Position numbers and translations under genes: made by a program. This document shows, piece by piece, positions 19,889-35,682 of a stretch of 64,000 bases of DNA (its first letter is position 1; the number at the start of each line of letters is the position of its first letter). Location: the NCBI RefSeq assembly GCF_002205675.1, contig NZ_NISK01000003.1, positions 248,001 through 312,000 of the forward strand. The letters are read 5' to 3'. This DNA is from Sphingopyxis bauzanensis (GTDB taxonomy: Bacteria; Pseudomonadota; Alphaproteobacteria; Sphingomonadales; Sphingomonadaceae). Under the pieces are notes generated by a model. That model was given only the letters and a program-made list of their open reading frames with translations, was not told where the DNA came from and did not search any database.

Positions 19889-20147
19889 CGCGATGAGATC
19901 GCGTCGCTGTTTTCCGCGCAGTTCGCTGAAAGAAGCCCGCGCCCGCCTTGCGCCAGCCCTCCTTCGTATTGGCGTCTTTCGTCGCGGCCGCGCCGATCAA
20001 TGCGCCGGCGAGCAGATCGGCATCAAGCGCATCGGCGCCGGTTGCGATGACGAGTTCGCCGAGTTGGCGAACGCGACGTTCCTTGAGGGTCTTCGCTTTG
20101 GCTTCGAGCGCCTTCAATTCCGAATCGATATCGCGGGGTTTGCGCAT
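19842..20147 (-). CDS. traC: Conjugal transfer protein TraC
   Basis: A 101-residue protein beginning MRKPRDIDSELKALEAKAK, a charged coiled-coil N terminus typical of TraC of Ti-like transfer systems, then RVRQLGELVIATGADALD and LAGALIGAA. The ATG at 20147 was preferred over a frame extension to 20231, which would run into the oriT region. It diverges from traA across the 172-bp oriT region, the standard arrangement. Confidence 0.8.
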   Translation of the reverse strand: MRKPRDIDSELKALEAKAKTLKERRVRQLGELVIATGADALDADLLAGALIGAAATKDANTKEGWRKAGAGFFQRTARKTATRSHRGAANDTAPDGHAASA

Positions 20148-20319
20148 GTCGCATCTCCATGATGGTGTGATGCCCCCATCATAGGGACGCGCCTCACGAT
20201 GCGCAGCAAGGTCGTCGGGACAGCCTGGCACAGCCTAGTCCCTCCGCGGATTTTTCCGTGTGAGGGCGCGCTTATACGTCGTGCCGACGTGGCTTTTGAA
20301 GTGTAGATGGATTGCCGCA
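20148..20319. other. oriT region between traC and traA
   Basis: The divergent traC-traA gap. At 20262-20276 the minus strand reads TATAAGCGCGCCCTC, matching the relaxase nick consensus of the RSF1010/Ti (MOBQ) group (TAAGTGCGCCCT). A CCGCGGA-TTTTT-CCGTG partial inverted repeat sits immediately beside it (20244-20260), where the relaxase-binding repeat should be. Promoters for both divergent transfer transcripts must also lie here. Confidence 0.7.
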
Positions 20320-23280
20320 ATGGCAATCTTCCATCTCTCGGTCAAAGTCATCAGCCGCGCCGCCGGACGGAGCGCCGTCGCAGCAGCGGCCTATCGTTCG
20401 GCCGAACGGCTGTACGATGAACGGCTCGACCGGGCGCATGACTTCACCAACAAATCGGGCGTCGTGCATTCGGACGTGATGCTGCCCACGAACGCGCCGC
20501 AACAATATCGCGATCGCGAGCAGCTCTGGAATCATATCGAGGCCATCGAGAAGCGCAAGGACGCGCAGCTTGCCCGCGAGGTGGAGTTCGCGATCCCGCG
20601 CGAAATGAACCAGGCGCAGGGCATTGAACTCGCCCGCGACTTTGTGCAACGCGAGTTTGTCGATCAGGGCATGGTCGCCGACCTCAATGTGCATTGGGAC
20701 ATCGGCGCCGACGGACAGGCCAAACCCCACGCGCATGTGATGCTGACGATGCGCGAGATCGTCGTCGGCGAGGATGGCGAAGCCGGGTTCGGCGCCAAGG
20801 TCCGCGATTGGAATCGTACCGAATTCGTCGAGCAATGGCGCGAGCGCTGGGCCGATCATGTCAATGAGCGCCTCGCCGACCTCGACATCGACGCGCGTAT
20901 CGACCACCGCAGCCTTGCGGCGCAGGGGATCGCGCTTGAACCGCAGGACAAGATCGGACCCGCCGCATCGCGCATGGGCGATCGCGGACTTGAGGCCCAA
21001 CGACTTGCTGAACACCGCGAGATCGCGCAGCGCAATGGCGAGCGGATCATCACCAATCCCCGCGTGGCGCTCGACGCGATCACGCACGGGCAGGCGACGT
21101 TCACGACACGCGACCTTGCCATGTTTGCGCACCGCCACAGCGACGGGCGCGAACAATTTGATGCGGTCATCGGCGCGGTGCGATCATCGCCCGACCTGAT
21201 TGCGCTCGGTCGGGACGGACGCGGCGAGGATAGGTTCACCTCGCGCAAAATGATTGAGGCCGAGCAGCGACTTGAACTCGCGGCGGAACGGCTCGCGGGG
21301 CGGTCGCGTCATGGTCTCCCGGCCGCGTCTTTGCAGAGAGCCGCTGACGCAGCCGGGAGTGTTGGCCTGGTGCTTGGTCGCGAGCAGCAGGCCGCGCTGA
21401 AGCATATAACGAGAGGGCAGGATCTTGCAATCGTCATCGGCTATGCCGGAACGGGCAAAAGCGCGATGTTGGGCCAGGCACGCGGGGCATGGGAGAACGC
21501 CGGGCTGGAGGTGCGCGGTGCCGCGCTGTCAGGCATCGCGGCCGAGGGTCTTGAGAACGGCTCGGGCATCGCCTCGCGCACGATTGCCAGCCTTGAACAT
21601 GGTTGGGCGCAGGGCCGCGATCTTCTCACCACTCGCGATGTGCTTGTCATCGACGAGGCCGGCATGGTGGGCACGCGCCAGATGGAGCGCGTGTTGTCGC
21701 ACGCTGCCGATGCCGGCGCCAAAGTCGTGCTGGTCGGCGATCCGCAGCAGCTGCAATCGATCGAGGCTGGCGCAGCGTTCCACGCGCTCCACGAACGGCA
21801 TGGCGGTGTTGAAATCACCGAAGTGCGGCGCCAGCATGAAGGCTGGCAACGCGAGGCGACCCGCGAGCTGGCCACGGGCCACACCGGCGATGCGATCCGC
21901 GCCTATGACGAGGCGGGTATGGTGCGCGCCGCCGAGACGCGGGGAGCGGCGCGCGCTGACCTCGTAGAGAATTGGGATCGCGACCGGAAGTGCGATCCAA
22001 ACGCTAGCCGCATCATCCTCACCCACACTAATGACGAGGTGCGCGCGCTCAACGAGGAAGCGCGGGAACGGATGCGCTCGTCGGGCGATCTTGGCGCCGA
22101 CGTCGCGGTGAAGGTCGAGCGCGGCGACCGGGTGTTTGCACCCGGCGACCGCGTCATCTTCCTGCGCAACGAGCGTAGCTTGGCCGTTAAGAACGGGACG
22201 CTCGGGACGATCGAGCAGGTCAGCGAACGCGGCATGACGGTGAACACCGGTGACGGACGGTCGGTGGCGTTCGACCTCAAGGATTATGCCCATATCGATC
22301 ATGGCTATGCGGCGACCATCCACAAGGCGCAGGGCATGACGGTGGACCGCACCCATGTGCTGGCAACGCCGGGGATGGATAGTCACAGCGCCTATGTCGG
22401 GCTGAGCCGCCACCGCGACGGTGTGAGCCTCCACTACGGCCGCGACGACTTCAAGGATCAGGGCAAGCTCGTTCGCACCCTGAGCCGCGAGCGCGCCAAG
22501 GACATGGCGGCGGACTATGCCAAGGCGGACCCCGCGCGGGCATTTGCCGAGCGGCGCGGGATAGTAATGCGCGAGCGAATCGTTGAAGCCGCGAAAAAGC
22601 TTCCCGAGACCCTGTCTCGGGCGGGCCTCGGGATTGCAAAGCAAGTCCCCGAGAAGGCTCGCAGCATCTTTGCGGGATTTAAGCCGGTCGTGAGGCGCGC
22701 CAGCGTTGAACCCCGCGATACCTCGCGAACGACCGACCAGCGCCGTGCGGTCGAACGCTATGCCCGCGCGCAGGCCGACATCAACCGGATGCGCGAGAAG
22801 GAGCTGCCGGTACTGCGGCACCAGCACGATGCGCTCGCACGCGCTGGCGATGCGCTCGGCGCAATCGGACCCCACGCGCGGCGCGATCTGGCGTCGGCGT
22901 TCGAGCGCCAGCCCGAGCTGGTTGCGCAAGCCGCCCAAGGCAACAGTCAGGCCGCGATCCGCGCCATGCAGCTCGAAGCCGAAGTCCGCACCGATCCGGC
23001 GCGCCGCGCCGATCGCTTCGTCGAGGGCTGGCAGAAGCTCCAGCAGCAGCGCGAGCGTTCGCTCACCAAAGGCCAGCAACGCACCGCCAGCCGTCTTTCG
23101 GGCGAGATGGGCGCGATGGCGCAAAGCCTTGAGCGCGACGCGCAGGTCGAATCGATTCTCAGCGCCCGCAAGGCGGCGCTCGGCATCGACGCGCGAGCGG
23201 TTCGCCCCATCGGACAGGAACTCGCCGACATCGCCGGGCTCGGTCACGTGCGGTCGCGCGGCATCGGTATTGGTATGTAG
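20320..23280 (+). CDS. traA: Ti-type conjugative relaxase/helicase TraA
   Basis: A 986-residue MOBQ relaxase fused to a RecD-like helicase. The relaxase domain begins MAIFHLSVKVISRAAGRSAV with SAAYRSAERL-like signals and has the metal-binding histidines in PHAHVMLTMRE (about residue 137). The helicase domain has Walker A GYAGTGKSAML (about 373), Walker B VIDEAGMVGTRQM (about 443), LVGDPQQLQSIE and the C-terminal YVGLSRHRDGV. A helical tail follows. The ATG at 20320 is the family start; the frame extension to 20260 overlaps oriT. It nicks at oriT and unwinds the transferred strand. Confidence 0.92.
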   Translation: MAIFHLSVKVISRAAGRSAVAAAAYRSAERLYDERLDRAHDFTNKSGVVHSDVMLPTNAPQQYRDREQLWNHIEAIEKRKDAQLAREVEFAIPREMNQAQGIELARDFVQREFVDQGMVADLNVHWDIGADGQAKPHAHVMLTMREIVVGEDGEAGFGAKVRDWNRTEFVEQWRERWADHVNERLADLDIDARIDHRSLAAQGIALEPQDKIGPAASRMGDRGLEAQRLAEHREIAQRNGERIITNPRVALDAITHGQATFTTRDLAMFAHRHSDGREQFDAVIGAVRSSPDLIALGRDGRGEDRFTSRKMIEAEQRLELAAERLAGRSRHGLPAASLQRAADAAGSVGLVLGREQQAALKHITRGQDLAIVIGYAGTGKSAMLGQARGAWENAGLEVRGAALSGIAAEGLENGSGIASRTIASLEHGWAQGRDLLTTRDVLVIDEAGMVGTRQMERVLSHAADAGAKVVLVGDPQQLQSIEAGAAFHALHERHGGVEITEVRRQHEGWQREATRELATGHTGDAIRAYDEAGMVRAAETRGAARADLVENWDRDRKCDPNASRIILTHTNDEVRALNEEARERMRSSGDLGADVAVKVERGDRVFAPGDRVIFLRNERSLAVKNGTLGTIEQVSERGMTVNTGDGRSVAFDLKDYAHIDHGYAATIHKAQGMTVDRTHVLATPGMDSHSAYVGLSRHRDGVSLHYGRDDFKDQGKLVRTLSRERAKDMAADYAKADPARAFAERRGIVMRERIVEAAKKLPETLSRAGLGIAKQVPEKARSIFAGFKPVVRRASVEPRDTSRTTDQRRAVERYARAQADINRMREKELPVLRHQHDALARAGDALGAIGPHARRDLASAFERQPELVAQAAQGNSQAAIRAMQLEAEVRTDPARRADRFVEGWQKLQQQRERSLTKGQQRTASRLSGEMGAMAQSLERDAQVESILSARKAALGIDARAVRPIGQELADIAGLGHVRSRGIGIGM

Positions 23281-23290
23281 GAGAAGACAC

Positions 23291-24004
23291 ATGCGTGAAC
23301 AGGAAATGGAGTATCAGGATCCCGCAACCACGGCGTTCGCCCGGCTCGAAGGCGAAGTCGCGCTCATGCGCCGCGCGGTGGAGCAACTCGCGGCAGAGAG
23401 GGCCGATATCCACATCCCGGACTACACTGATACGCTTGGCGAACTATCGAAACATCTCGGTGCCGCGGAGCGAACGCTGAGAACCATCGTTGCCAAGCCT
23501 GCGATGGAGCTGACCCCGGAAGAAATGGCGCGTCAGATTGACCGGGCGGCCCGGCAGGCGCGTGACGCCACGGCAAGCGAAATGCAGCGGGCGCAGGTGC
23601 GGTTCGACAATGCCGCATATGAACTGCGCGGTACGATATCGACGCTGCGGGCAGCGCATGAGCAGCGCCTTCACCTCATTTGGGCAGTGGGCGGCGGCAT
23701 TGTCGCCGGGTGCCTGCTCTGGTCGATCCTGCCGGGCGCTTTTGCCAGGGCGCTGCCGGATCGGTGGCAGCTGCCCGAGAGAATGGCGGCGCATATCGTC
23801 GGTGCGCCGACGATATGGGAAGGCGGCGTGCGGCTTATGCAGGCTGGCAGTCCGGAAGCTTATCGGGCAATTTCCGCCGCGGCGGTGATGCGCCACGACA
23901 ATAAGGACAAGATTGCCGCCTGCGAAAAGAGTGCAGAGAGGTCCAAAAAGTCGGTGCGCTGCACTATACAGATTAAGGAAAATTCGTATGAAACAGGAAT
24001 CTGA
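23291..24004 (+). CDS. DUF6118-family membrane protein
   Basis: A 237-residue protein following traA by 10 bp. The N-terminal half is a coiled-coil region (FARLEGEVALMRRAVEQLAAE). A single membrane segment, LIWAVGGGIVAGCLLWSILP, lies near residue 135, and a short C-terminal domain with two cysteines (AACEKSAERSKKSVRC) follows. This family regularly sits behind traA in sphingomonad elements; its role is unknown. A second copy, truncated at the N terminus, is at 35850-36528 in element B. Confidence 0.75.
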   Translation: MREQEMEYQDPATTAFARLEGEVALMRRAVEQLAAERADIHIPDYTDTLGELSKHLGAAERTLRTIVAKPAMELTPEEMARQIDRAARQARDATASEMQRAQVRFDNAAYELRGTISTLRAAHEQRLHLIWAVGGGIVAGCLLWSILPGAFARALPDRWQLPERMAAHIVGAPTIWEGGVRLMQAGSPEAYRAISAAAVMRHDNKDKIAACEKSAERSKKSVRCTIQIKENSYETGI

Positions 24005-24153
24005 ATAGGTTGTATCGCGTAATAAAGCTGGAGGTCGGGCCGCGCTTTCTATCACATTCAAGGCCGAAATTTACGCCCCACTTGGGCGGCAGGCGTTCTG
24101 GACTAGGGTCACGGACGAGGCCAATTGACCTACTGCGCGTTATCCTCCCATAA

Positions 24154-24351
24154 TCAGCGCAGGCAGTCCGAGATTTTCGAGTTCATGACGTGCCGCAGCA
24201 CTTCAAGATCGTTCAAAACGGCATTGGGATCCCGTTCTCGAGCCGTCCGCAACGCCTGCTTGAGCCAAGGACTCATCGCGGGGTGAGCAAGAATCCATGC
24301 TATCTGTTCGTCTGATTTCAGCGGATATTTCTTGGAAGGCTCTGGAATCAT
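24154..24351 (-). CDS. Small hypothetical protein
   Basis: A 65-residue protein (MIPEPSKKYPLKSDEQIAWI at the start). It is the last frame behind the dab-cysD-DUF6671 operon, 27 bp after the DUF6671 stop and on the same strand. It is hydrophilic and helical, with no recognised domain and no membrane segment. Its base composition is less GC-rich than its neighbours. It may belong to the operon. Confidence 0.5.
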   Translation of the reverse strand: MIPEPSKKYPLKSDEQIAWILAHPAMSPWLKQALRTARERDPNAVLNDLEVLRHVMNSKISDCLR

Positions 24352-24378
24352 GATTTTTTTGCTCCGTTACTAAGCGCG

Positions 24379-25242
24379 TTAAGGATTGCATTGGCCGCAG
24401 CTGCCAGGGTCAGCGCTGACAGCTGCCATTGGTCGCTCGACACGGTGGTCGCATAGGACGCAGGACATCACTTCCGCTCGGATGGCGTCTGTCGGGCCGT
24501 GGCACCAAGAACACGGTAGCCCGGTTAGCCGCCTCGTGACCGCGAACCCAGGTGCAGCGCATACCGGGCACGAACTGCGATAACGCCGCACCAAGTCCAG
24601 GGTCGCGCGTTTGATCCCGCGCATTCGCGTCGGATTGCGGTGGGCCCGCATGTCGGTTTCGATAAAGGCGGTGCCGCATATACTGACTACGCGTTCGACA
24701 GCGTCGGTTAGATCGTTCGCATCCGCGATATCTTTGAGCAGAACTCGTTCAGGTGCCGGCTGTCCGTCCCGGCAACCAATAACAAGAAGACCGTGTTTCG
24801 GGAATTGGAGCCGCGACGCAAATTCCAGCGCCGATTCCACGTTCGAGACCACCGCATGGCTAAAGTTGGTTTCCAAGCAAGCATGGTATCCGATAACTTC
24901 TATACCTCGGGTCCGATCAGCGAGCATGACGATCTCACGCGCCAGCGGCACAAAGGGTATATAGGGGTGCGGACCGAAACTGCCCTCGCTCGCAATGGCG
25001 ACGGTCGCCTCGGGTGTGGCGGCGAATGCCGCCGAGATTTTGGCGCGCGCCGCGTCGATCTGCGTGCCAGTCCGCTCCACGTCACGGCTAAATGTGCCGA
25101 ACCAGTCGGTATCGATATCGCGGCTCACCGCTACGTGCAGGCCGAGCGCGCGCTTTAGCAGCGGATGGATAACCCGCTCCTTGCCGTGCATCGTTGCCAG
25201 CACCGCCAGTTCGTCATCGTAGGGTCGGACAGCGGGGCGCAT
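24379..25242 (-). CDS. DUF6671-family protein
   Basis: A 287-residue protein of unknown function. The N-terminal part (LAVLATMHGKERVIHPLLKR, then VSRDIDTDWFGTFSRDVERT) matches my memory of DUF6671. The C-terminal part has three cysteine pairs, CPVCAAPG, CSWCHGPTD and CVLCDHRVERP, plus a final CGQC, which suggests zinc-binding knuckles. It starts 2 bp after the cysD-like stop, so it is translated in the same operon as the dab genes. The family name is moderately certain; the function is not known. Confidence 0.65.
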   Translation of the reverse strand: MRPAVRPYDDELAVLATMHGKERVIHPLLKRALGLHVAVSRDIDTDWFGTFSRDVERTGTQIDAARAKISAAFAATPEATVAIASEGSFGPHPYIPFVPLAREIVMLADRTRGIEVIGYHACLETNFSHAVVSNVESALEFASRLQFPKHGLLVIGCRDGQPAPERVLLKDIADANDLTDAVERVVSICGTAFIETDMRAHRNPTRMRGIKRATLDLVRRYRSSCPVCAAPGFAVTRRLTGLPCSWCHGPTDAIRAEVMSCVLCDHRVERPMAAVSADPGSCGQCNP

Positions 25243-25244
25243 TG

Positions 25245-26150
25245 CTAGAAATACCCCTCACGCTTCTTTTGTTCGAGCGACCCTCCCTCGTCGCCGTCGC
25301 TGATTCGCCCCTGCCGCTCAGACGCCGACGCGGCCAACGTCTCCTGCACGACGGAGCGAAGATCCGTCGCCTCGGATTCAACCGCCGCGGTCACCGGCCA
25401 GCAACCAAGCGTTCGAAAACGCACGGTTTTGATTTCGGCAGTTTCGCCCGCGCGAAGTGGCATTCGGGCGGCGTCGTCTATAGCAATCAGCCCTCCGTCG
25501 CGCAGGACGACGCGCCTTTCTGCTGCGAAGTAGAGCGGCGCCAGCGAAATATCATTCGCCAGCGCATAAATCCAAATATCGGCTTCGGTCCAATTCGATA
25601 GCGGGAACACGCGTGCCGACTGATTGCTTACCAGCCGAGTATTGTAGAGATTCCAAAGCTCAGGACGTTGCTGGCGAGGCTCCCAAATATGCCCCTTGGC
25701 GCGGACCGAAAAAAAGCGCTCCTTCGCCCGCGACTTTTCTTCATCGCGGCGCGCTCCGCCGAAGACGATGTCAAAGCCGCCCAGGTCGAGAGCAGCTTTG
25801 AGCGGCTCAGTGCGCATTTCCAGCGTATAGCGGTCACCATGATCAAACGGGTTCAGGCCAGCGGCGCGCCCTTCCTCGTTAACGTGGACGATCAGTTTGA
25901 ATCCGTGTTCGCGGGCAAAGGCGTCACGGAAGCGGAGCAGCGATCGGAATTCCCAAGTCGAATCAATATGCAACAACGGAAACGGCGGGCGGCCTGGAAA
26001 GAAGGCGCGCAGCGCCAGATGCGCCAGCACGGTCGAATCCTTGCCCGCCGAGAATAGCATCACCGGCTTGCGGGCTTCGGCAACCGCCTCGCGCAGGATG
26101 TAGATCGCCTCGGATTCTAGCCGTGACAGATGCGAGAGTGTTGCCGTCAT
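25245..26150 (-). CDS. cysD: CysD-like sulfate adenylyltransferase subunit 2 (orphan)
   Basis: A 301-residue PAPS-reductase/ATP-sulfurylase-type protein. The PP-loop motif [14 protein letters not shown] is at residue 33. [36 protein letters not shown] and the C-terminal [13 protein letters not shown] are all hallmarks of CysD, which activates sulfate to APS together with the GTPase CysN. No cysN or reductase gene is nearby. It starts inside the end of dabA (4-bp overlap) and is followed by the DUF6671 gene. The operon setting suggests either a moonlighting role or a link between carbon and sulfur supply. Confidence 0.85.
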
Positions 26151-28705
26151 TCGACCGCCGCCCAGGCCAGTCCCCCAGCATAGCGTCGGATCGTGCGGCC
26201 GTCCTCATCGATCCGGAACAGATGCACCCAGCCATTGTCTACGAGCTCGAGCACGCTCGCATGAGCGGCTATCGTCTGGCTGAGCACCTCCTCGGGCGCT
26301 TCGATGAAGACGTTTAGCCGTAGCGGCTCGTGGACGAAGCGCTCGCCGTCATGCACCGACTGCCAGGGCAGCCCGACCTTGAGGTCGCCGGAATTACCCT
26401 CCAGCACCCCCAATTGCCCGACCACATTGTGAAGCACCTTATTGCCGCTGCCGAAGGCGCGGTTGTTCACGGTGGAGCCGTAATATTGCAGGTTGATCCA
26501 GCTTGCGACGACCATCGGCGCGGTCATGATCAATTCGAGGACGCCGAACCCATCATCCTTGCGCCAGTCATAGTCCTGGAGGAAAGCGCGGCCCCCGAGA
26601 TCGAGCCCGCGCGTCCGCGCACGCGGCGCGGCGATGAAGGCGGCGTTGCCAGCGAGCCCCCATTCAGGACGGACCTGCGCCCAGTCACGGCTGCGCGCCT
26701 TCACCGCGCGATCAACGTCCGTCGTCTTGTCGATCCCGAGTCCCAGCGCGCGTTCGGCGCGCGCCATCGAAGAAGCGGTGGCCAGTGCCGTGCTCAGCGC
26801 CGACAAATCGGCCGCGTGGGTTGCAGGGAGGTCATCAGCGTCGAAGATGCGAACCTCGTCGGTCGTGGTGTCGTGCAGGCAGCCCAGGAACCAGGTGTCC
26901 TCGGGGATATCGATCCCCTTGCGGGCGAGGCCGGTGCGCACGCCAGGGTCGTTGAGGATAGCCGCCGCGACGCGGGCGTTCGCCTCGCCGGTGTGGCCGC
27001 CGCACGCGCCGCAATCGAGGCCCGAGGCATGGGGATTGTTGACCGTCGTGCTGCCGTGCCCAGCGAGCAGCACCAGCCGTGCGAAGTCTTGCGTCATCGA
27101 CATCGCGCGCAAGACAGCCTCGGCCATCGCGACGCGCTGCGCGTCGTCGAAGCCGGTCAGCCGGCCACCCACCGGACGCAATTCCAGACTTGGACCGATC
27201 CTACCGATGACGTTCTCGTCGAGACCATCGGTGTTGGGATCGCTGACCGTCCGCGTGAGGCGCGCGCTGTCGCCGACGAGTTTGCCGGCGAACAGCAACC
27301 CCGCCGTCTCGACATAGGTGAACGACGACACCGCCGAGAGCTTGAACGCCTTCCACGCCTTGGCCACCCGGCGACGCATCAGACGGCGCCTGAGGATATT
27401 GGTCTCCTCGGGCTCAGAAGCGCCGGTGACCGCCTCGCAGACGACGAAGGCAGGTTTGAGCAGCACCGGGCACTGCGCGCCGCCGGTGTCGCGGCCGATC
27501 GGTACATATTCGATCGGGAAGCCGAAGAAGCCAGCGAAGCCGATAGTCTCGGCATCGGGACAGACGGTTTCGAACGCCCGCCGGTAGACTTCGGAGCGCA
27601 CGTCGATGCAGAACGCCGCCTGGAAAGGCTTGCGCGCGCCCTTTGCAGGCGCGGGAGATGCGAGGTGCTGCCCCAGCCGCGCGAGCAATTGGCGCTGGTA
27701 GGCGGCCTCATAGGCCTCGTGGAGCATCAGATCGACGGCCAGCTCGGGATCGTTGCCAAGGCGCTCGTCTTCCGGCAGCGCCGCGGCCTCAGCCATCGCA
27801 TTCGACCACGCCGTCCTGAAGTCAGGGTCCGCGCGTTCGAGGAACAGCGCATAGCCCCACACCACCCGGATCGCGAGCAGCTGCACCAGGGTGTCGTCGT
27901 CACGCCCGTAAAGCGCGTTGTCCCAGACACGGTAGCGCGCATAGGCGGCCCAGCCGCCGATATCGACCAGCGCGCGGTGCAGATAATCCTCGACCGCGCG
28001 ATCGGGGATACCGAGCGCGCCGACGACCGCGGCGATCGCCTCGAGCGGATCGTCGGCCAGGGCAGCGACGGCTTCGCGGAAGCCCTTGATCCCCATCGTC
28101 TCGGGGTTGCGGTCAAATCGCATCGCCGCGCGCCAGGCGGCGTAAGGAGGCAACGCCCGCGACGGCAGCTTCCAGGCTGCCTGGCCTTCGTCGAAATAGG
28201 CCGCGCACCATTTCGAGATCTCGTCGATCATGAACGCCGTGCGCGAGGCCTGACGGTCGCCAGCCGCCAACGCATCGAGAACTTCGGCGACGGTCGCGAC
28301 GACCGCCTTCGGCCTCTTCGTCACCGGATCTCGCGCAGCTGACCGGCACAGCGCAGCGGCATCGCTCGCCAGCGTCGCATGACCGGACGTGCCGGCGATC
28401 GCCACCTCCAGATCGCGATCTTCGATCCGTCCGGCCGCCAGCGCTTCACGGTAGAATGTGCGCGGCATCAGCATGTCGACGCCGGCGACACGGCGCAGCG
28501 TCGCGCATGTCGCCGCGAAGCTCTGGTCGCTGAAACCGAGGAATGGATTGACCGCTACGAAGTGCTTGAGCGGCCAAAGCGGCGCGATCTTGTTGCACGC
28601 TCGGTCGATGGCGGCGTCAATCGCCGACCGTTGCAGGGAGCTGGATGGCTCGACATCCTGTGACGGGCTCAGCGGATCGATCGCGACGGCTACGGCATGG
28701 CTCAT
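26147..28705 (-). CDS. dabA: DabA: inorganic carbon transporter subunit (DUF2309)
   Basis: An 852-residue DUF2309 protein, the carbonic-anhydrase-like subunit of the DAB inorganic-carbon pump. Probable zinc-site motifs are [16 protein letters not shown] (Cys and Asp), [16 protein letters not shown] (His) and [17 protein letters not shown] (Cys). The N terminus begins [16 protein letters not shown]; a longer open frame to 28996 runs through dabB in another frame and was not used. The start overlaps the dabB stop by 4 bp. DabA and DabB are thought to convert CO2 to bicarbonate unidirectionally, driven by the cation gradient. Confidence 0.9.
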
Positions 28706-30327
28706 GAAGGAACTCCGCTGACAGGGGTCGAGGGAACGATCGCATTGGGCGGCGGCGGGCTGGGCCAGAACCGCAGCACCAGCCGGTTGGCGACCGTGTT
28801 GACGTAGAGCCCGTTGGCGAGGTGGACGTAGATGGCCTGCCAGCGCGGCGCGTCCGCCTTGCCAGGCAAGACGCTCTGAAAGACTGTCACCGCCGCAAAG
28901 GCGAGCACGACCAGGGCGACGATGACGAGATCGAGCGGGCCGCGCAGTGCCTGCACCGGGGGCAGCGACCCGGCGAGCAAATGCTCCACCGCCCATTGCA
29001 GCCCGAAATAGGCGAGCGACACCGCGACTGCGAGCGCCACAGTGCGGGCGACCACATAGAGGCTCGGCCGCTCATCGAAGGCCTGGGTGATGAGGTGCGA
29101 GAGACCGAGCATCACGACCGCGCCGAGCGCGAACACCCCCGGTTGCGCGGTAATGGTAGCGCCGAACAGCGTCCCCACGACCAGCGCCGCCGCCAGCACC
29201 AGACCAACGATCATCGCCATGCGCGCTGGGTGCGGCTGGCCGCCGGGGCTCGGCGACCAAGACGCCCGCGCGAGGTCGATGACGCTGCCCGACGCGAGGA
29301 AGGCGTGCGCCTTGTAGAGTGAGTGGGCAACGATGTGCAGCAGCGCGGCGGCGAAAGCCCCGAGGCCACATTGCAGCATCATGAAGCCCATCTGGGCGAT
29401 CGTAGAATAGGCAAGCGAAACCTTGACGCTGGTCTGGGTCAACATGACGACCGAGCCGAACAGCGCGGTCACGCCGCCGACGATGACGAGCACTTCCATC
29501 GATGGCGCCGAGAGCGAGATGACGTCGGCTAAGCGCAGCACTAGAAAGCCGCCGGCGTTGATGACGCCAGCATGGAGCAGCGCTGACACCGGCGTCGGTG
29601 TCTCCATCACCTCCGTGAGCCAGCCATGCAACGGGAACTGGGCGGACTTGAGCAGCGCTGCCACGACCAGGAGTAGCGCGACCGCGTGGATCACGGCTGG
29701 AATATCACCGCCGAGGCGCATCGCTTCGGCGCCGGCGAAGAGGACCGCATAGTCGAGGCTGCCGAAGGCTTGATGGAGCAGCACCATCGCCGCGATCAGA
29801 CAGAGATCGCCGAGGCGGCTGACGAGGAATTTCTTCCGCGCCGCGAGCACCGCCGACTGTCGCTCGGGATAAAACAGCAGCAGCTTGTTGAGCCCGAGGC
29901 TGGTCGCGATCCAGGCCAGCGCGAATTGGAACAGATTGCCCGATACAATCAGCAGCAGCACCGCCGCGAGCGTCAGGCACAGCCACTTGGTAAAACGGGC
30001 CTGCCCACGGTCACCGTCGAGATAGTTGCGGCTATAAAGGACGACGATCAAGCCGACGAAGGCGACCAGCGCGAACATGATCGCGGCCAGGGTATCGACA
30101 TAGAATCCAACGCCGACACCTGCGACGCCGATCGTGCCAGTCGCCAAGGTGCCCTTGACCGCGATGCCAATGCCCGTGGCCACAGCGAGCGCCAGCGCGA
30201 AGCCTGCGATCAACGCGGCACCCCCTCCGACGCGGCCCTGACCCGGCTGGACGCGGCCGGCCGCCAATCCGGCGATTGCGAGCGCGAGCGGTCCGAGAGC
30301 GAGGCACCAGGTTATGTTCGGCATCAT
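28702..30327 (-). CDS. dabB: DabB: NuoL-like proton-conducting subunit of the DAB system
   Basis: A 541-residue multi-pass membrane protein of the NADH-quinone oxidoreductase subunit L/Mrp family. FYVDTLAAIMFALVAFVGL, RKKFLVSRLGDLCLIAAM and the channel segment AQFPLHGWLTEVMETPTPVS (shortened here) with ALLHAGVINAGGF are typical. It directly precedes dabA with overlapping stop and start, which distinguishes DabB from true NuoL. It is the first gene of a dabB-dabA-cysD-DUF6671 operon and diverges from a LysR gene. Confidence 0.88.
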   Translation of the reverse strand: MMPNITWCLALGPLALAIAGLAAGRVQPGQGRVGGGAALIAGFALALAVATGIGIAVKGTLATGTIGVAGVGVGFYVDTLAAIMFALVAFVGLIVVLYSRNYLDGDRGQARFTKWLCLTLAAVLLLIVSGNLFQFALAWIATSLGLNKLLLFYPERQSAVLAARKKFLVSRLGDLCLIAAMVLLHQAFGSLDYAVLFAGAEAMRLGGDIPAVIHAVALLLVVAALLKSAQFPLHGWLTEVMETPTPVSALLHAGVINAGGFLVLRLADVISLSAPSMEVLVIVGGVTALFGSVVMLTQTSVKVSLAYSTIAQMGFMMLQCGLGAFAAALLHIVAHSLYKAHAFLASGSVIDLARASWSPSPGGQPHPARMAMIVGLVLAAALVVGTLFGATITAQPGVFALGAVVMLGLSHLITQAFDERPSLYVVARTVALAVAVSLAYFGLQWAVEHLLAGSLPPVQALRGPLDLVIVALVVLAFAAVTVFQSVLPGKADAPRWQAIYVHLANGLYVNTVANRLVLRFWPSPPPPNAIVPSTPVSGVPS

Positions 30328-30391
30328 GGTCGTCTCCAGCGCGAAGCGACCTATTCATTAACGGTGGGAACGGGTTCTAGATAATACAAAG

Positions 30392-30425
30392 ATTGCGCAA
30401 CATCGTTCGTTTTTGTAAACGCAAT
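30392..30425. promoter_or_regulatory. Candidate LysR operator in the dabB-lysR gap
   Basis: The 100-bp divergent gap contains ATTGCG (30392-30397) and CGCAAT (30420-30425) as an inverted repeat with a 22-bp AT-rich centre. Such sites upstream of divergently oriented LysR genes usually bind the regulator and control both directions. The repeat is visible; the function is inferred. Confidence 0.35.
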
Positions 30426-30427
30426 TA

Positions 30428-31315
30428 ATGCCAACTCTCAACTATCACCATCTGCGCTATTTCTGGGCCATCGCCCATGAGGGGAGCCTCACGCGCGCCG
30501 CCGAACGGCTTAATCTGTCGCAATCGGCGCTCTCGGTGCAGCTCGGCAAGCTCGAACTGCAGCTCGGCCATCCGCTGTTCGACCGAGCCGGCAAGCGGCT
30601 TGTCCTTACCGAGGCCGGACGCATCGCCCTCGATTATGCAGATACCGTCTTCCAGGCCGGAGACGAGCTTGTAAGCACGATGAAGGGGCGCCCAGTGGAT
30701 CGGCGGCAGGCATTTCGGGTTGGCGCGTTGACCACGCTCTCCCGCAACTTCCAGCTGGAGTTCCTGAGCCCACTGATTGGCAGAGCTGACGTTGAACTCA
30801 TCATCCGTTCAGGCAACATGCGCGATCTCCTCGCCCAGTTGGAGGCGCATACGGTCGATGTCGTGCTCGCGAACAGCGCCCCACAGCTTGATGCCCGGTC
30901 TGATCTTCGCAGCCATTTACTGGCTCAGCAACCGGTTGCGATTGTTAGGCGGCCGAGTGCCCAATCCTTTACATTTCGCTTTCCTGAAGACCTACAATCC
31001 CAACCGATCTTACTCCCAAGCTTGGATAGCGAGATCCGGGTTGGGTTCGATCGAATCGTCGAACTCGCTGGCGTGCGCCCGCTCATCATTGCCGAGGTGG
31101 ACGATATGGCTATGTTACGGCTTCTCGCCCGCGACGGCGAAGGGCTAGCATTGGTGCCACCGATAGTGGTGCGGGACGAGCTGGCGGCAGGTCTTCTCGT
31201 AGAGGTCTGTCCCATTCCGAACCTAAGCGAAACTTTCTACGCGATAACGCAGAAACGCCGCTTCCCGAATCCCCTACTCGCGGACCTGCTCGCGTGCGCA
31301 GCTAAAGACAAGTGA
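30428..31315 (+). CDS. LysR-family regulator divergent from the dab operon
   Basis: A 295-residue LysR-type activator. The winged helix-turn-helix reads YHHLRYFWAIAHEGSLTRAA followed by ERLNLSQSALSVQLGKLE, and a periplasmic-binding-like effector domain follows from about residue 90. The N terminus resembles NhaR-type regulators. Divergent placement 100 bp from dabB makes it the likely regulator of carbon uptake, perhaps sensing a low-CO2 metabolite. The inducer cannot be inferred. Confidence 0.85.
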   Translation: MPTLNYHHLRYFWAIAHEGSLTRAAERLNLSQSALSVQLGKLELQLGHPLFDRAGKRLVLTEAGRIALDYADTVFQAGDELVSTMKGRPVDRRQAFRVGALTTLSRNFQLEFLSPLIGRADVELIIRSGNMRDLLAQLEAHTVDVVLANSAPQLDARSDLRSHLLAQQPVAIVRRPSAQSFTFRFPEDLQSQPILLPSLDSEIRVGFDRIVELAGVRPLIIAEVDDMAMLRLLARDGEGLALVPPIVVRDELAAGLLVEVCPIPNLSETFYAITQKRRFPNPLLADLLACAAKDK

Positions 31316-31516
31316 TCACGCCGGTCTTGTCGAACTCGACGTGAGTCGCCAGCGATATCTGGAAATAGATCGCCGATCAGGGCTTGCGCAAAATGCTGGA
31401 CTACCATCTCTCTTTCGCCGAATTGACGAAGGTACTCGTCCGTCGGCGAGGGATCCGCTTGCACGGAACCCGATCGATGATCAGTTTCAACGCTGCCTTA
31501 GCATATGAAGAAGTGT

Positions 31517-32446
31517 TCGATGTCGACACTACGCCAACTTGAATATCTCGTCGCGATCGCGGATCTGCGCAACTTCGGCCGCGCGGCGCAGGCTTGCAAT
31601 GTTTCGCAACCCACCCTCAGTCAGCAGTTGCGTTCGCTTGAGGATAGTCTTGGCGTAATCCTAATCGAGCGGAACACAACGGGTGCCGATCTGACTCCGA
31701 TTGGCCGCGATATCACCGCGCGAGCACGACGGCTCTTGGTCGAAGCGCAGGACATTCGTGATGTTGCTCGGCGCGCAGGCGACCGCTTAGCTGGAACCCT
31801 AAGACTTGGTGTTACACCAACTTTGGGGCCTTATTTGATGCCGCCGATCGTGGCGGCACTTCACCGTGAGCAACCAGATCTGCGACTGCATATCAAAGAA
31901 GGGATTCCCGACGACCAAGCGCTTGCGCTGTCACGCGGGGCTCTCGACATGCTGCTGGGGCCGTTGCCGATCGCGGGCAGCGATCTTAATGTTCAGCCTC
32001 TATTTCGCGAGCGATTGTTCGTTGTTGCTGCCTCCGACCATCCGCTTACGAAACTCCAAAACCTGCGCTGCGAACATCTTCAAGGGGCGCACGTACTTAG
32101 CCTCGACAGACGTCATCATCTTCATCGTGAGGTCGCCACGATCTGCACCGCGTTCGGTATGGAGCTGCTGCGCGATTATGAAGGCACCAGCTTAGACAGT
32201 ATCCATCAAATGTCTGCCTCAGGGATAGGCTTAGCGATCCTCCCGGAACTATACATCCGCTCTGATGTCGCGGGCCGGACTGGGGTCGCCGTCCTCCAAC
32301 CAGAGGGGTGGCACTTCACGCGCAGCATTGCAGCAGCGTGGCGCTCGGGCGCAGCTTATGGCGACGCTTATCGAATGATCGCCGAACGTATCGGAACCGA
32401 AGCAAGCGCATTGACCGGTGCGAACGGGGGACTGTTTCGCGAGTAA
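31517..32446 (+). CDS. OxyR-like LysR-family regulator lacking one redox cysteine
   Basis: About 309 residues from MSTLRQLEYLVAIADLRNFG (the ATG at 31505 gives four more). Helix-turn-helix AQACNVSQPTLSQQLRSLE. The effector domain resembles OxyR (HREQPDLRLHIKEGIPDDQ, then LDMLLGPLP). Where OxyR has the peroxide-reacting cysteine before the resolving cysteine, this protein reads LDRRHHLHREVATICTAFG: the first position is His and only the second Cys remains. Classical disulfide peroxide sensing is therefore unlikely. It stands alone after the dab regulator. Confidence 0.8.
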   Translation, partial: SMSTLRQLEYLVAIADLRNFGRAAQACNVSQPTLSQQLRSLEDSLGVILIERNTTGADLTPIGRDITARARRLLVEAQDIRDVARRAGDRLAGTLRLGVTPTLGPYLMPPIVAALHREQPDLRLHIKEGIPDDQALALSRGALDMLLGPLPIAGSDLNVQPLFRERLFVVAASDHPLTKLQNLRCEHLQGAHVLSLDRRHHLHREVATICTAFGMELLRDYEGTSLDSIHQMSASGIGLAILPELYIRSDVAGRTGVAVLQPEGWHFTRSIAAAWRSGAAYGDAYRMIAERIGTEASALTGANGGLFRE

Positions 32447-32521
32447 TAGATTTTTTCTATTGCTTTGCCCGCATAATCGAATTAGCCATCTATCAGCAAA
32501 TAATCTATCGATTGTTGTGCG

Positions 32522-32604
32522 GCCCGGGCCCCTCTGGCGACTGCCGTTTAGGCAGCTGCGATGTCGGACCGCATCGGATTGGTGATCGGCTCCTGACGCC
32601 CGTC
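32522..32604 (+). ncRNA. terC-motif-like RNA, copy 1 (upstream of YdcH-like gene)
   Basis: Shares CCCTCTGGCGAC and GCGATGTCGGAC with copy 2 at 33183-33262. The outer stem here is CGGGC (32525-32529) with GCCCG (32598-32602), whereas copy 2 uses CCGGGTC with GACCCGG, so the pairing is kept while bases change. Between the two shared blocks lies the hairpin CTGCC-GTTTA-GGCAG (32541-32555). It lies 50 bp upstream of a small-gene pair and is probably a cis-acting leader RNA. The family name is from memory of alphaproteobacterial terC leaders. Confidence 0.6.
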
Positions 32605-32654
32605 AAGTAGCACCGCACTTTTCCGGTCGACCAAACATCGAGTGGAGAGAGACT

Positions 32655-32834
32655 ATGAATTCAATTACATATCGAATGGCGCTCGCGCATAGCAAGCTTG
32701 ACGCGGAGATAAGCCGCGAACAGAAGCGCCGCATACCGGATAGTTGGCGCTTGCTGCGGCTCAAAAAGCTGCGGCTCGCGATCAAGGATCGCATGCACAG
32801 GCTGATCGGGTCGCGCCTACAAGGGACGGCTTAA
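32655..32834 (+). CDS. YdcH/DUF465-family small protein
   Basis: A 59-residue basic protein beginning MNSITYRMALAHSKLDAEIS. It contains the helical hairpin pattern SKLDAEISREQKRR, then LLRLKKLRLAIKDRM, the short DUF465 (YdcH) signature. It follows an AGTGGAGAGA ribosome-binding site and the first terC-motif-like RNA. The zinc-ribbon gene starts 3 bp after its stop. Function unknown. It is too short to appear as a long open frame but has clear family character. Confidence 0.7.
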   Translation: MNSITYRMALAHSKLDAEISREQKRRIPDSWRLLRLKKLRLAIKDRMHRLIGSRLQGTA

Positions 32835-32837
32835 GCC

Positions 32838-33134
32838 ATGCGCAGCGCCGATGCGGTAGCCGCCATGCCGTGCCCGAATTGCAGGACGGGACTGACCTTG
32901 TCCGACCGTTCGGGCGTAGAAATCGATTATTGCCCGACTTGTCGCGGCGTTTGGCTCGATCGCGGTGAGCTCGACAAAATCATCGAACGCAGCGCCCGTG
33001 ACGCGACGTCAGCATCCCGCCAAGACGATCAGCCGCGTCAAGACTATCGGTCGGATGGCTATCGCGGCGACGATGATCGCCACTACCGGCCGGGCAAGCG
33101 CAAAAAGTCCTTTTTGTCGGACCTGTTCGATTGA
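32838..33134 (+). CDS. TFIIB-type zinc-ribbon protein
   Basis: A 98-residue protein with one zinc ribbon: MPCPNCRTGLTLSDRSGVE, then YCPTCRGVWLDRGELDKII, the zf-TFIIB pattern. A charged, Asp/Arg-rich linker and a basic tail ending KKSFLSDLFD follow. Such proteins are common stress or metal-linked small proteins of unknown role. It is co-transcribed with the YdcH-like gene under the first leader RNA and followed by a strong terminator. Confidence 0.8.
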   Translation: MRSADAVAAMPCPNCRTGLTLSDRSGVEIDYCPTCRGVWLDRGELDKIIERSARDATSASRQDDQPRQDYRSDGYRGDDDRHYRPGKRKKSFLSDLFD

Positions 33135-33139
33135 TCCTT

Positions 33140-33173
33140 CCCGCCGCCGACTGCCGTCGGCGGCGGGTTTCTT
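33140..33173 (+). terminator. Rho-independent terminator after the zinc-ribbon gene
   Basis: Perfect 12-bp stem CCCGCCGCCGAC-TGCC-GTCGGCGGCGGG followed by TTTCTT, 5 bp after the stop codon. It separates this transcript from the second leader RNA and terC. Confidence 0.85.
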
Positions 33174-33182
33174 GCGCAATAA

Positions 33183-33262
33183 TTCCGGGTCCCTCTGGCG
33201 ACCTCGACCTGGGTTGCGATGTCGGACAATCACCAACCGCCTGACGCTAGGCTGACCCGGAT
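33183..33262 (+). ncRNA. terC-motif-like RNA, copy 2 (upstream of terC)
   Basis: A structured leader 13 bp upstream of terC. The outer stem CCGGGTC (33185-33191) pairs with GACCCGG (33254-33260). Inside are the blocks CCCTCTGGCGAC and GCGATGTCGGAC shared with copy 1. TerC-family genes are often preceded by such RNAs (yybP-ykoY manganese riboswitches in many bacteria, the separate terC motif in Alphaproteobacteria); the conserved blocks here fit the latter better. Confidence 0.65.
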
Positions 33263-33274
33263 CGGATCGAACCC

Positions 33275-34255
33275 ATGGAATTTCTTGAATATATCTGGCT
33301 CGGTAAGCCGCTTTGGATGTGGCTCGCCTTCCTTGCCATCGTCGTTACCCTGTTGGCGCTCGACCTCGGGGTCTTGCACAAGCAGCAGCGCGAGATCGGG
33401 GTGAGCGAGAGCCTGGTGCTGTCAGCGGTCTATATTGGCCTTGGTCTGCTCTTCGGCGCATGGGTCTGGTGGTATATGGGCGAAACCGCCGGGCTTCAGT
33501 ATGTCACCGGCTTTGTCATCGAGAAAAGTCTTGCGATGGACAATGTCTTCGTGATCGCGATGATCTTCACCTATTTCGCAATTCCGAGGCAATATCAGCA
33601 CCGCGTGCTATTCTGGGGGATCCTCGGCGTGATCGTTCTGCGCGCGATCATGATTGGCGTTGGCTCAACGTTGGTCGAACAGTTCAGCTGGGTTCTCTAT
33701 GTGTTTGCGGCATTCCTGATCCTGACCGGCGTCAAGATGTGGATGACCGCGGGCAAGGACTATGATGTTGGCTCAAGCGGGGCACTTCGCTTCATTCAGA
33801 AGCATCTCCCCGTGACCGAAAAGCTGCACGGCGAGCGCTTTTTTGTACGCCAGCCCGACGGGGTGACTGGCAAGCCGAAGCTTTGGGTGACGCCTCTGTT
33901 TCTTGCCCTCGCGATGGTGGAAATCGTCGACGTCGTATTCGCGGTCGACAGCGTACCCGCGATCTTCGCGATCACCACCGATCCGTTCATTGTTTACACC
34001 TCGAATATCTTTGCGATCCTCGGGCTGCGAGCCCTTTATTTCGCGCTCGCGGCAATGGTGCACCGGTTCCACTATCTCAAATATGCGCTGGCAATGCTGC
34101 TCGTGTTCATTGGATCAAAGATATTCGTGGCCGATGCACTTGGCCTTGCTAAAATCCCGCCGGTTGCGTCGCTGTCTATCACATTTGTTATCTTGGCGGC
34201 TGGAGTCGGTTGGTCACTATGGAGGACTCGCGCGGCGCCGCCTCCCTTTGGGTAG
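33275..34255 (+). CDS. TerC/Alx-family integral membrane protein
   Basis: A 326-residue protein with about nine membrane segments. EKSLAMDNVFVIAMIFTYF and the second acidic segment EIVDVVFAVDSVPAIFA are the TerC signatures, with acidic residues inside the membrane that are thought to handle metal ions. E. coli Alx, in the same family, is induced by alkaline pH and manganese and exports Mn. A structured leader RNA precedes it. In this element it follows genes for bicarbonate uptake, where internal pH control would make sense. Confidence 0.9.
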   Translation: MEFLEYIWLGKPLWMWLAFLAIVVTLLALDLGVLHKQQREIGVSESLVLSAVYIGLGLLFGAWVWWYMGETAGLQYVTGFVIEKSLAMDNVFVIAMIFTYFAIPRQYQHRVLFWGILGVIVLRAIMIGVGSTLVEQFSWVLYVFAAFLILTGVKMWMTAGKDYDVGSSGALRFIQKHLPVTEKLHGERFFVRQPDGVTGKPKLWVTPLFLALAMVEIVDVVFAVDSVPAIFAITTDPFIVYTSNIFAILGLRALYFALAAMVHRFHYLKYALAMLLVFIGSKIFVADALGLAKIPPVASLSITFVILAAGVGWSLWRTRAAPPPFG

Positions 34256-34582: not shown

Positions 34583-35682
34583 TTATATAAGCACCGCCAG
34601 CAAGTTATAACATCGGTGGCTCCGCGAACCCGAGGCCACTGACGTTATAACTCTGTTGGCGTCGGGTTGCTGATTGTCGTTCACAAAGTCAAGAATGCCC
34701 ATCAGCGACCCGTGCAGGGTGGCGTGAACCTCGCCGCGCTTGGCGCCGGGATGTAGAACGATCTTGCCGACGAGTGAGCGAATGTCGCTTGAAGCATCGA
34801 GCTGAGTTTCCAGGTCTTCCAGCGTTTCGGTGAGCCGCGCGACCTTGGCCTTGTAGATTTCAGCAATGCCCGGATGGATGTCGGGAATATGCTGCGGCGT
34901 GTCGGCTAGCCGTGCAGCGATCTCTTGCTTTTCGCGTTCGAGTTCAGCCATGCGGGCTTTCATGCTGGGCTGGTAGAGACCATCCTCAATCGCCGCCATG
35001 ATCCCCGCGAGCGCCCGGTCGACCTTTGCCAGCGCACGGACGTCGGCATCGGCCTGAACTCGACGCTCGCGGTTCTCGCCATTGATATGCGCCACATAGG
35101 CAGCCACCGCTGCGTCGATCTTGTCCGCCGAAACAAGGCGATCCGCGATACCAGCCAGCGCGCGGCGTTCCAGCTCCGCACGCCGGATTGTGCGGCCGTT
35201 CGTGCATGAGTGGCTGCGATAGCGACCTACACAGCCGTAACGGTCTCCGACGACGAGGGCATAAGTTCCGCCGCAAACGCCGCATTCGAGCAAGCCGGAG
35301 AGCAGATAGGCTGGACGCCGCGCTTGATGCAGCGAACGGGCCTGTGCGGCTTGCTTGATGCCGACATATCGGTCGGCAACGATTTCCTGCTGACGCTTCG
35401 CCGCGGCCCATAGCTCGTCGCTGACGATGCGCAGTTCCGGCGCCGCATTCCGGATCCACTCGGATTCAGGATTGAGGCGCATGACTTCTTTGCCAGTGGT
35501 GGGGTCTTTCATGGTGTGTTTGTGGTTCCAAACCCGGACCCCGACATACAGCTCATTATTGAGTATACCGGTTCCCCGCCGCACATCGCCCCGAATGCTG
35601 GTGTCGCGCCAAGCCTTTCCGACAGGTCCGGCAACACCGTCGGCGTTGAGGTCGCGCGCGATCGCAAGCGGGCTCTTTCCGG
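34583..35682 (-). pseudogene. Serine recombinase of element B, N-terminal catalytic domain lost
   Basis: About 365 residues, closely similar to the C-terminal two thirds of the recombinase at 3710-5347. It opens at GKSPLAIARDLNADG, keeps the zinc ribbon (LECGVCGG, then YGCVGRYRSHSCTNG) and the C-terminal region. It is cut at 35682 by an IS21 end and lacks roughly the first 190 residues, including the catalytic serine. Its 3' end runs through the complete attP-like site, so the tail reads VITSVASGSRSHRCYN and ends further on than in copy A. It is not functional. Confidence 0.9.
34604..34651. other. Complete attP-like site at the junction of elements A and B
   Basis: A 48-bp imperfect palindrome. 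The left arm GTTATAACATCGGTGGC and the right arm GCCACTGACGTTATAAC (inverted) flank CGAA at 34625-34628. It is nearly identical, base for base and in length, to the site made by joining the outer arms at 42993-43013 and 3723-3745. In a tandem of two elements the inner junction should be P arm of A + P' arm of B, exactly as seen. Confidence 0.8.

Follow-up and report, generated by a model that had tools for sequence, protein, structure and literature searches.

A mobile DabAB carbon-pump operon with a CysD-type protein and DUF6671 in Sphingopyxis bauzanensis, probably one version of a wider low-CO2 gene cluster

Introduction

Why should a bicarbonate pump share an operon with a subunit of ATP sulfurylase and a protein of unassigned function? 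This question is raised by a locus of Sphingopyxis bauzanensis lying in a stretch of 64,000 nucleotides (assembly GCF_002205675.1, contig NZ_NISK01000003.1, positions 248,001 to 312,000 of the forward strand), referred to here as the window, in which dabB, dabA, cysD, a DUF6671 gene and a small fifth gene follow one another. An earlier note on this DNA had seen in it a DAB pump in extended or regulated form, spread by a mobile element and coupled to an orphan CysD, a subunit that normally needs CysN. Its description of the tight coupling of four genes, of the missing cysN beside cysD and of several CxxC-type knuckles in DUF6671 was confirmed, and the mobile, extended DAB system with a linkage conserved well beyond the strain stood, whereas the role given to CysD did not. 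The fifth gene, the wider family of DUF6671 clusters and the optional status of cysD had been omitted.

The operon is real, conserved and mobile, and joins several accessory genes to a carbon pump, DabAB. Judged from gene content, it is probably a transferable module for the supply of inorganic carbon and represents one form of a wider low-CO2/bicarbonate cluster marked by DUF6671. No paper using the name DUF6671 was found in a literature search, and searches on DabA/DabB with CysD, gene neighbourhoods, plasmids or LysR and on the CO2-linked enzymes, judged by titles and the beginnings of abstracts, gave none that describes the cluster; within the literature searched in this way, the wider cluster was not found described as such.

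Results

Mobility and conservation of the operon

Neighbouring genes overlap by 4 bp at dabB/dabA and at dabA/cysD, and a gap of 2 bp separates cysD from the DUF6671 gene (Table 1). The block at 19665-31350 of the window, relaxase gene included, recurs in Sphingopyxis solisilvae with 94% identity, positions 24188-31323 recur in a Bradyrhizobiaceae metagenome-assembled genome (MAG) with 79% and positions 24491-30116 on a Mesorhizobium plasmid with 74%. Against S. solisilvae and the Bradyrhizobiaceae MAG, the ratio of nonsynonymous to synonymous substitution rates (dN/dS) was 0.07-0.31 for all five genes and lowest for cysD (0.07-0.11). The gene calls, the shared blocks and these ratios carry both the observation of the operon and its mobility. 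Transposases, relaxases and plasmids surround many copies of DUF6671 clusters, and the relaxase is regarded as the carrier of the operon rather than as part of its function. A phage origin of DUF6671 was rejected on 0 matches among 50,697 phage records, and a tRNA-anchored island on the absence of any tRNA from the window.

DUF6671 as hallmark of a larger cluster family

For a quantitative view of the linkage, 30 DUF6671 loci with flanks were sampled from the phylum of the window, its class and the class of genome G372 (labels with G denote genomes, those with L loci), the window being excluded. DUF6671 was present in 9/398 genomes of the phylum (8 over the cut-off), in 14/385 of the class and in 14/369 of the class of G372 (13 over the cut-off); the three samples share a few genomes. 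Excluded from the 30 were G170 and G1118 (below the cut-off), G723 (a fragment with stops), G1146 (a fragment of 45 amino acids) and L167, which came from a further sample (order of G405; 2/200, centre included). Loci cut by contig ends were kept (L019, L214, L216, L217, L219 and L226).

At 19 of the 30 loci a carbon-uptake gene, dabA or sbtA, lies no more than 7 kb from DUF6671, whereas none was found in 40 arbitrary control regions from 20 of the same genomes (Fisher p = 9e-10); the positions of these regions were set by hand to round coordinates and not drawn at random. The corresponding counts were 7/30 versus 0/40 for tsaC (p = 0.0017) and 10/30 versus 1/40 for any of tsaC, pyrC, ilvD and bioD (p = 6e-4), and sbtA was seen at 4/30 loci (p = 0.03). 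Several rows are not independent because they come from related species, and the Fisher values ignore kinship. Because loci had been viewed before the neighbour genes of the panel were selected, 7 of the 30 are not independent of it; among the 23 fetched after the panel was fixed, a carbon-uptake gene was present in 14 and any of the six core genes (dabA, sbtA, tsaC, pyrC, ilvD and cysD) in 16. dabA as such occurred in 69/398 genomes of the phylum (68 over the cut-off), and five of the eight DUF6671 genomes over the cut-off in this sample hold dabA, all five as a neighbour.

A scan of GTDB genomes returned at least 576 relatives of DUF6671. The 80 loci kept from it comprise 50 cyanobacterial ones and 30 others, as judged by title. 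Many of them are cut by contig ends, L014 and L031 are the same contig, and N_L168 and N_L147 are the same gene. dabA lies beside DUF6671 in 17 of the 30 non-cyanobacterial loci, and 10 of these 17 have a full-length cysD. The complete order dabB-dabA-cysD-DUF6671, for which the earlier note had asked a survey, was found in Alphaproteobacteria (Sphingopyxis, Mesorhizobium) and Gammaproteobacteria (Dyella). L017 and L018 have instead a separate DUF6671-cysD pair, DUF6671 first, which runs towards dabBA from the opposite side and has its own LysR gene. Eight housekeeping proteins served as controls, and outside the loci from which they were taken they seldom recurred in non-cyanobacterial loci: guaA was found again in L038 and L040 (relatives of the source L033), CysQ matched weakly in L041, AccC, itself a carboxylase, recurred in L230, and PurH recurred only in cyanobacterial loci.

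DUF6671 is commoner in the cyanobacterial phylum (26/108 genomes, centre included) than in the phylum of the window (8/398) or that of L102, a Bacteroidetes MAG (4/111, centre included). The idea that DUF6671 belongs to the cyanobacterial core genome and to the carbon-concentrating mechanism was nevertheless rejected, given just 26/108 genomes and no core neighbour in the fetched flank of any of the 50 cyanobacterial loci; its link with carbon uptake is weak there.

Versions of the cluster on plasmids and chromosomes

PLSDB holds 12 plasmid records with DUF6671, and at the best place of each, the one that was opened, dabA, sbtA or other panel genes were present in the island (12/12). dabA belongs to the same cluster in seven records (H1, H6, H7, H8, H10, H11 and H12), and sbtA accompanies DUF6671 in three (H2, H3 and H4). 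The Methylocystis plasmid H5 carries ilvD-pyrC-DUF6671-acyl-CoA carboxylase and, on the other strand 7-16 kb away, dabB, dabA, bioD, crotonyl-CoA carboxylase, cysD and bioA in a row; a gene for formylmethanofuran dehydrogenase subunit A (FwdA) is also found in the Methylocystis cluster. The Pseudomonas hygromyciniae record H9 combines cysD-cysN, TerC, DUF6671, pyrC, ilvD and a tsaC match.

The most complete combination at one locus is that of L232, tsaC-bioD-bioA-ilvD-pyrC-DUF6671-dabA, with a LysR gene and a class-II fructose-bisphosphate aldolase gene next to it. Other versions are ilvD-pyrC-DUF6671 with dabBA and TerC (L215), bioA-ilvD-sbtA-DUF6671 with a short open reading frame between ilvD and sbtA (L231) and icd-tsaC-DUF6671 (L167). 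In L230 (5387-13941), tsaC-DUF6671 is followed by a biotin carboxylase and a PYC_OADA protein, and tsaC/DUF6671 lie between this carboxylase pair and a nearby cbbQ, a gene of the Rubisco activase family. At five loci (L042, L086, L167, L229 and L230) the fetched flank shows no pump, and DUF6671 is accompanied by tsaC, in some cases together with icd, or by carboxylase genes. DUF6671 is thus the hallmark of a larger cluster family with sbtA, tsaC, pyrC, ilvD and biotin/carboxylase genes, which is new with respect to the earlier note.

The recurring neighbours comprise carbon uptake (DabAB, SbtA), enzymes with CO2 or bicarbonate as substrate (TsaC, BioD and carboxylases of the pyruvate-carboxylase, acyl-CoA and crotonyl-CoA types) and enzymes with a carbamylated lysine; a carbonic anhydrase gene was seen once, and pccB and ccrA are also present. 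TsaC uses bicarbonate and BioD uses CO2. A carbamylated lysine is described, in the available parts of the respective sources, for the IlvD family (PMC5770437, PMC9314677), dihydroorotase (PMC8659124) and FwdA (PMC11656701).

Some further gene associations were observed at these loci. On plasmid pSDM007 of P. hygromyciniae, pieces annotated as Mur ligase family and cyanophycin synthetase lie downstream of ilvD-tsaC (L210:7898-9525); Mur ligases are another family with a carbamylated lysine. An isocitrate dehydrogenase gene stands beside tsaC-DUF6671 or DUF6671 in L041, L086, L102 and L167, with such neighbours on contigs of Rhodanobacteraceae, Bacteroidetes and Caulobacteraceae, among others. 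In Bacillota (L096:2364-8816 and L098), DUF6671 was seen by eye among genes resembling 2-oxoacid:ferredoxin oxidoreductase, with sbtA upstream in L096, and in Bacillus taeanensis a protein of 176 amino acids with no Pfam match lies between sbtA and DUF6671 (L089:7419-7949).

A distinct CysD in the island

The earlier note had treated CysD as a subunit awaiting a distant CysN. The genome of the window does hold cysD followed by cysN on contig C11, with a cysQ-like gene behind them (by eye), and a third gene with a PAPS_reduct domain on contig C22. cysD was searched in 21 genomes and matched in 19. In the fetched flanks, cysN adjoins none of the 14 dab-linked copies versus 18/18 of the other copies; this count does not include two full-length matches (G372, G410) or five that are partial or weak. 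One of the partial ones comes from L026, a Rhizobiaceae MAG with cysD(partial)-cysN-DUF6671 and a small gene at the contig start (2-3649), which gave the sole CysN match among the 80 kept GTDB loci. A CysN-linked cysD was found elsewhere in 12 of the 14 genomes with a dab-linked one and was not seen in the other two (G399, G405), both from MAGs.

In a phylogenetic tree, 16 island CysDs form one clade with a support of 1.0. The CysDs of L017 and L018 group with CysN-linked ones, among which is a copy from G261, the genome that contains L018, and CysD was therefore recruited twice. All 18 island copies, from both lineages, have Glu67 and Tyr108. Lys67 is found in 19/19 distinct CysN-linked CysDs and His108 in 18/19, and both are present in the solved CysD of the CysDN ATP sulfurylase (1zun). 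Position 67 directly follows the conserved HxDT stretch. The island protein thus resembles 1zun CysD in sequence family, full-length homology and PP-loop and differs from it in the exchange of Lys67 for Glu and of His108 for Tyr and in having no adjoining cysN, so that the CysN-dependent orphan subunit of the earlier note was not upheld.

The PP-loop and other invariant residues are retained, and together with the lowest dN/dS of the operon this suggests that the island CysD is not a decaying copy but probably still functions as an enzyme, with an altered requirement. The same two residue differences in two lineages suggest that it is probably the requirement for the anion or for the partner that has been altered. 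In Jiella (L014/L116) and L041, just short, weak CysD matches precede DUF6671, and these are read as remnants. L132 has dabBA-cysD with no DUF6671, and other genomes have dabBA-DUF6671 with no cysD. The recurrence of clusters with remnants of cysD or none marks it as optional and DUF6671 as the steadier partner.

The DUF6671 protein

The structure model of DUF6671 has a predicted local distance difference test score of 94.8. Its first domain has the predicted fold of YjjX/RdgB inosine/xanthosine triphosphatases (Foldseek E 2.6e-4, VIA Z 12.6), from which the protein differs by an extra insert, a cysteine-rich tail and the lack of a shared sequence family; at E <= 0.001, a Pfam search returned DUF6671 itself and no other family, triphosphatases included. 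The insert (about residues 124-199) resembles the lid of ATP-grasp enzymes with Z 7.7-9.1 in the whole model and Z 6.3-7.7 when searched alone, then with no Foldseek E <= 0.001. Its structural matches are by title almost wholly ATP-grasp enzymes, including carbamoyl-phosphate synthetase and biotin carboxylase. The tail (residues 225-285) contains four CxxC pairs, whose eight cysteines are invariant in 58/58 sequences; a fold search with the C-terminal model gave no match clearly covering this tail, and such an absence is no evidence. The retained cysteines were also set beside the clusters of zinc starvation (Zur/COG0523), which are marked by Zur-type regulation and zinc-free paralogues. His19, Lys21, Asp46, Arg57, Lys68, Glu86 and other residues are likewise invariant in all 58 sequences, and Lys21, Lys68 and Glu86 may, as judged by eye, correspond to the catalytic lysines and acidic residue of ITPase. 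This invariance suggests that DUF6671 is an enzyme or a nucleotide binder.

The DabAB pump

The pump was assigned as DabAB by homology, with a PF10070 DabA and a Proton_antipo_M subunit encoded next to each other. Over an alignment of 824 residues with the solved DabA2 (9rd0), the window protein keeps the zinc site (Cys351, His524, Cys539) and the Asp353-Arg355 dyad, and CIDVRSE and one further motif align as well. The roles of these residues are described in the available text of PMC13144422, where DabA2 is presented as a carbonic-anhydrase-like enzyme with a zinc site, coupled to the proton motive force. The operon shares the dabB-dabA pair, both domain families and the zinc-site residues with the DAB2/DAC complexes (DabAB; MpsAB in Staphylococcus), and differs from them in its CysD and DUF6671, neither of which is named in that part of PMC13144422. 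Bicarbonate is required by heterotrophs, and DAB relieves the loss of carbonic anhydrase, according to the available text of PMC9894237. A single continuous frame matched by both DabB and DabA, through fusion or joining of frames, was observed in Jiella (L014:3931-7938) and in a Myxococcales MAG (L083:2-2797, cut by the contig end).

Gene calls and neighbouring genes

The operon CysD scores 434.8 bits against an NCBIfam equivalog cut-off of 413. A longer alternative ATG frame of dabA starts at 28996 within dabB; the start was set at 28705. The end of the fifth gene forms the lower limit of the studied stretch (24154), and this gene recurs downstream of DUF6671 in several relatives. The divergent LysR gene is kept in most related dab clusters whose contigs are long enough to show it.

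Beyond it (31505-34255) lie a second LysR gene, a gene for a zinc-ribbon protein of 98 amino acids (TFIIB-type) and one for a TerC/Alx protein; TerC is also found near the DUF6671 clusters of L018, L170, L178, L180, L181, L182 and L215. A minus-strand frame adjoining the island (34583-35584) shows, by eye, a serine recombinase-like and a zinc-ribbon region and is a possible mobility gene.

Table 1. Positions of the operon genes and of neighbouring features in the window
Feature	Positions	Strand	Description
dabB	30327-28702	minus	541 aa, NuoL/Mrp-antiporter-like membrane subunit, Proton_antipo_M (Pfam)
dabA	28705-26147	minus	852 aa, PF10070 DabA, 932 bits
cysD	26150-25245	minus	301 aa, PP-loop nucleotidyltransferase, island type (Glu67, Tyr108), no adjoining cysN
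DUF6671 gene	25242-24379	minus	287 aa, Pfam DUF6671, 169.8 bits
Fifth gene	24351-24154	minus	65 aa, no Pfam family
Divergent region between dabB and LysR gene	30328-30427		100 bp, presumed promoter region
LysR-type regulator gene	30428-31315	plus	Divergent from dabB
TraA-type relaxase gene	20260-23280	plus	Within the block common to S. solisilvae
TerC/Alx family membrane protein	33275-34255	plus	Outside the block common to S. solisilvae; membership uncertain

Discussion

A low-CO2 module probably accounts best for this gene content, and it may be pictured as follows. DabAB would use an ion gradient to build up bicarbonate in the cell, in DAB2 via one-way hydration of CO2, and the divergent LysR regulator probably switches the cluster on at carbon shortage. 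DUF6671 and the altered CysD would serve as accessory proteins that handle nucleotides. In other versions, the same place is held by enzymes expected to fail when CO2 is scarce, either for want of substrate (TsaC, BioD, biotin carboxylases) or of a carbamylated lysine derived from CO2 (PyrC, IlvD). Since these versions carry CO2-dependent enzymes in the same place, the kit would enlarge the bicarbonate pool and at the same time supply further doses of such enzymes. At some loci DUF6671 stands beside tsaC or genes of the pyruvate-carboxylase type while the fetched flank has no pump; its role is therefore probably to bind a nucleotide and to act on CO2-dependent metabolism, or to sense it, and would not be confined to gating a pump.

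Several observations weigh against this picture. Taken singly, CysD, PyrC and IlvD were found at 3/30 sampled loci each, which is not significant (p = 0.07, 0.07 and 0.21), and isocitrate dehydrogenase and TerC lay within 7 kb of DUF6671 in 0/30; for CysD, isocitrate dehydrogenase and TerC no need of CO2 is obvious. Nine of the 30 loci (L016, L020, L216 and L218-L223) are without any core gene, as are all 50 cyanobacterial GTDB loci in their fetched flanks, with a bioA match in L055 and a weak dabB match in L095 as exceptions outside the core set. A prediction that island PyrC and IlvD would be CO2-independent through exchange of the lysine for Glu or Asp was wrong. The carbamylated lysine of PyrC is kept in 5/5 island copies covering the site, the sixth PyrC being partial. 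All six island copies of IlvD have the lysine of the CDK motif (motif from the available text of PMC5770437). Finally, a similar published operon is induced by chromate and is read by its authors, in the available text, as an oxidant response (PMC9080137).

A narrower role, in which DUF6671 and CysD regulate the pump and gate DabAB through a nucleotide signal that they make or read, is possible, though doubtful. The parallel is SbtB, a PII-like nucleotide-binding partner that gates SbtA, and the cyanobacterial pair likewise sets a carbon transporter beside a nucleotide-binding protein. DUF6671 lies directly behind dabA or beside sbtA, which belong to two unrelated carbon-uptake systems; its predicted folds, different from that of SbtB, resemble nucleotide-binding domains, and CysD-type enzymes handle ATP. 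However, the five loci that join DUF6671 to tsaC, icd or carboxylase genes have no pump in the flank, which weakens a purely regulatory role, and cyanobacterial DUF6671 has no core neighbours.

An operon against metal or oxidant stress, for example by chromate, was ranked as the main rival but is unlikely. DabA would here give redox protection, or oxidant-sensitive enzymes such as the Fe-S enzyme IlvD would be replaced. The och operon of Leptospirillum sp. CF-1 consists, in the available text of PMC9080137, of co-transcribed genes for NuoL, DUF2309, a hypothetical protein and dihydroxy-acid dehydratase (ilvD) with Sua5 next to them; it is chromate-induced, and its DUF2309 gene raises the tolerance of Escherichia coli to chromate and peroxide. 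Its gene content is that of the present clusters and so supports the cluster as such, whereas CysD goes without mention in the main text and the authors favour an oxidative/chromate reading (PMC9080137). Operons of NuoL and DUF2309 are the subject of an older note in the available text of PMC5700660. Neither ilvD nor Sua5/TsaC is present at the window cluster (10001-50000), and related DUF6671 clusters have one or both. Metal genes (CusA/CzcA, ChrB, a copper-binding protein) near some islands and the recurrent TerC/Alx would also fit the stress reading; sbtA, tsaC, bioD, pyruvate-carboxylase-type genes, pccB and ccrA, however, have no evident redox logic, and neither does the description of DabA2 in PMC13144422 cited above point that way.

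More specific than the carbon-supply module, and quite unlikely, is the idea that DUF6671 is a nucleotide-driven factor of CO2 economy, which would for instance feed CO2 derived from bicarbonate to the lysines of PyrC and IlvD or to bicarbonate-using enzymes, and that CysD is an adenylyltransferase with a Glu mimicking a carbamate in place of a lysine, or one that takes bicarbonate as its anion. If this were true, mobile elements would be passing on everything needed at low CO2, from the pump and a helper to the CO2-dependent enzymes.

That the island CysD merely boosts sulfate activation together with chromosomal CysN is very unlikely. It passes the equivalog cut-off and keeps its PP-loop, most of the genomes concerned (12/14) hold cysD-cysN elsewhere, and cysD-cysN is itself part of the DUF6671 clusters L026 and H9; against this stand the separate clade, the absence of adjoining cysN from all dab-linked copies and the consistent Glu67/Tyr108 in place of the Lys67 and His108 of CysN-linked copies. 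A cargo assembled by mobile elements with no common function, as the plasmids, transposases and relaxases around many copies might suggest, is hardly credible, because 0/40 control regions carry a carbon-uptake gene, and the same few genes recur across several phyla in varied orders and with low dN/dS.

The carbon-supply module thus gives a concrete physiological setting to a protein of unassigned function found in several phyla. Two odd genes, cysD and DUF6671, recur in several phyla beside carbon pumps and CO2-needing enzymes, which points to a kit against CO2 shortage, and a subunit of ATP sulfurylase came to lie next to this pump on two separate occasions, showing identical residue differences in both lineages. 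The cluster makes it testable whether lysine carbamylation is limiting in cells. If the reading is right, CO2 shortage selects strongly enough to move gene kits between bacteria, including heterotrophs.

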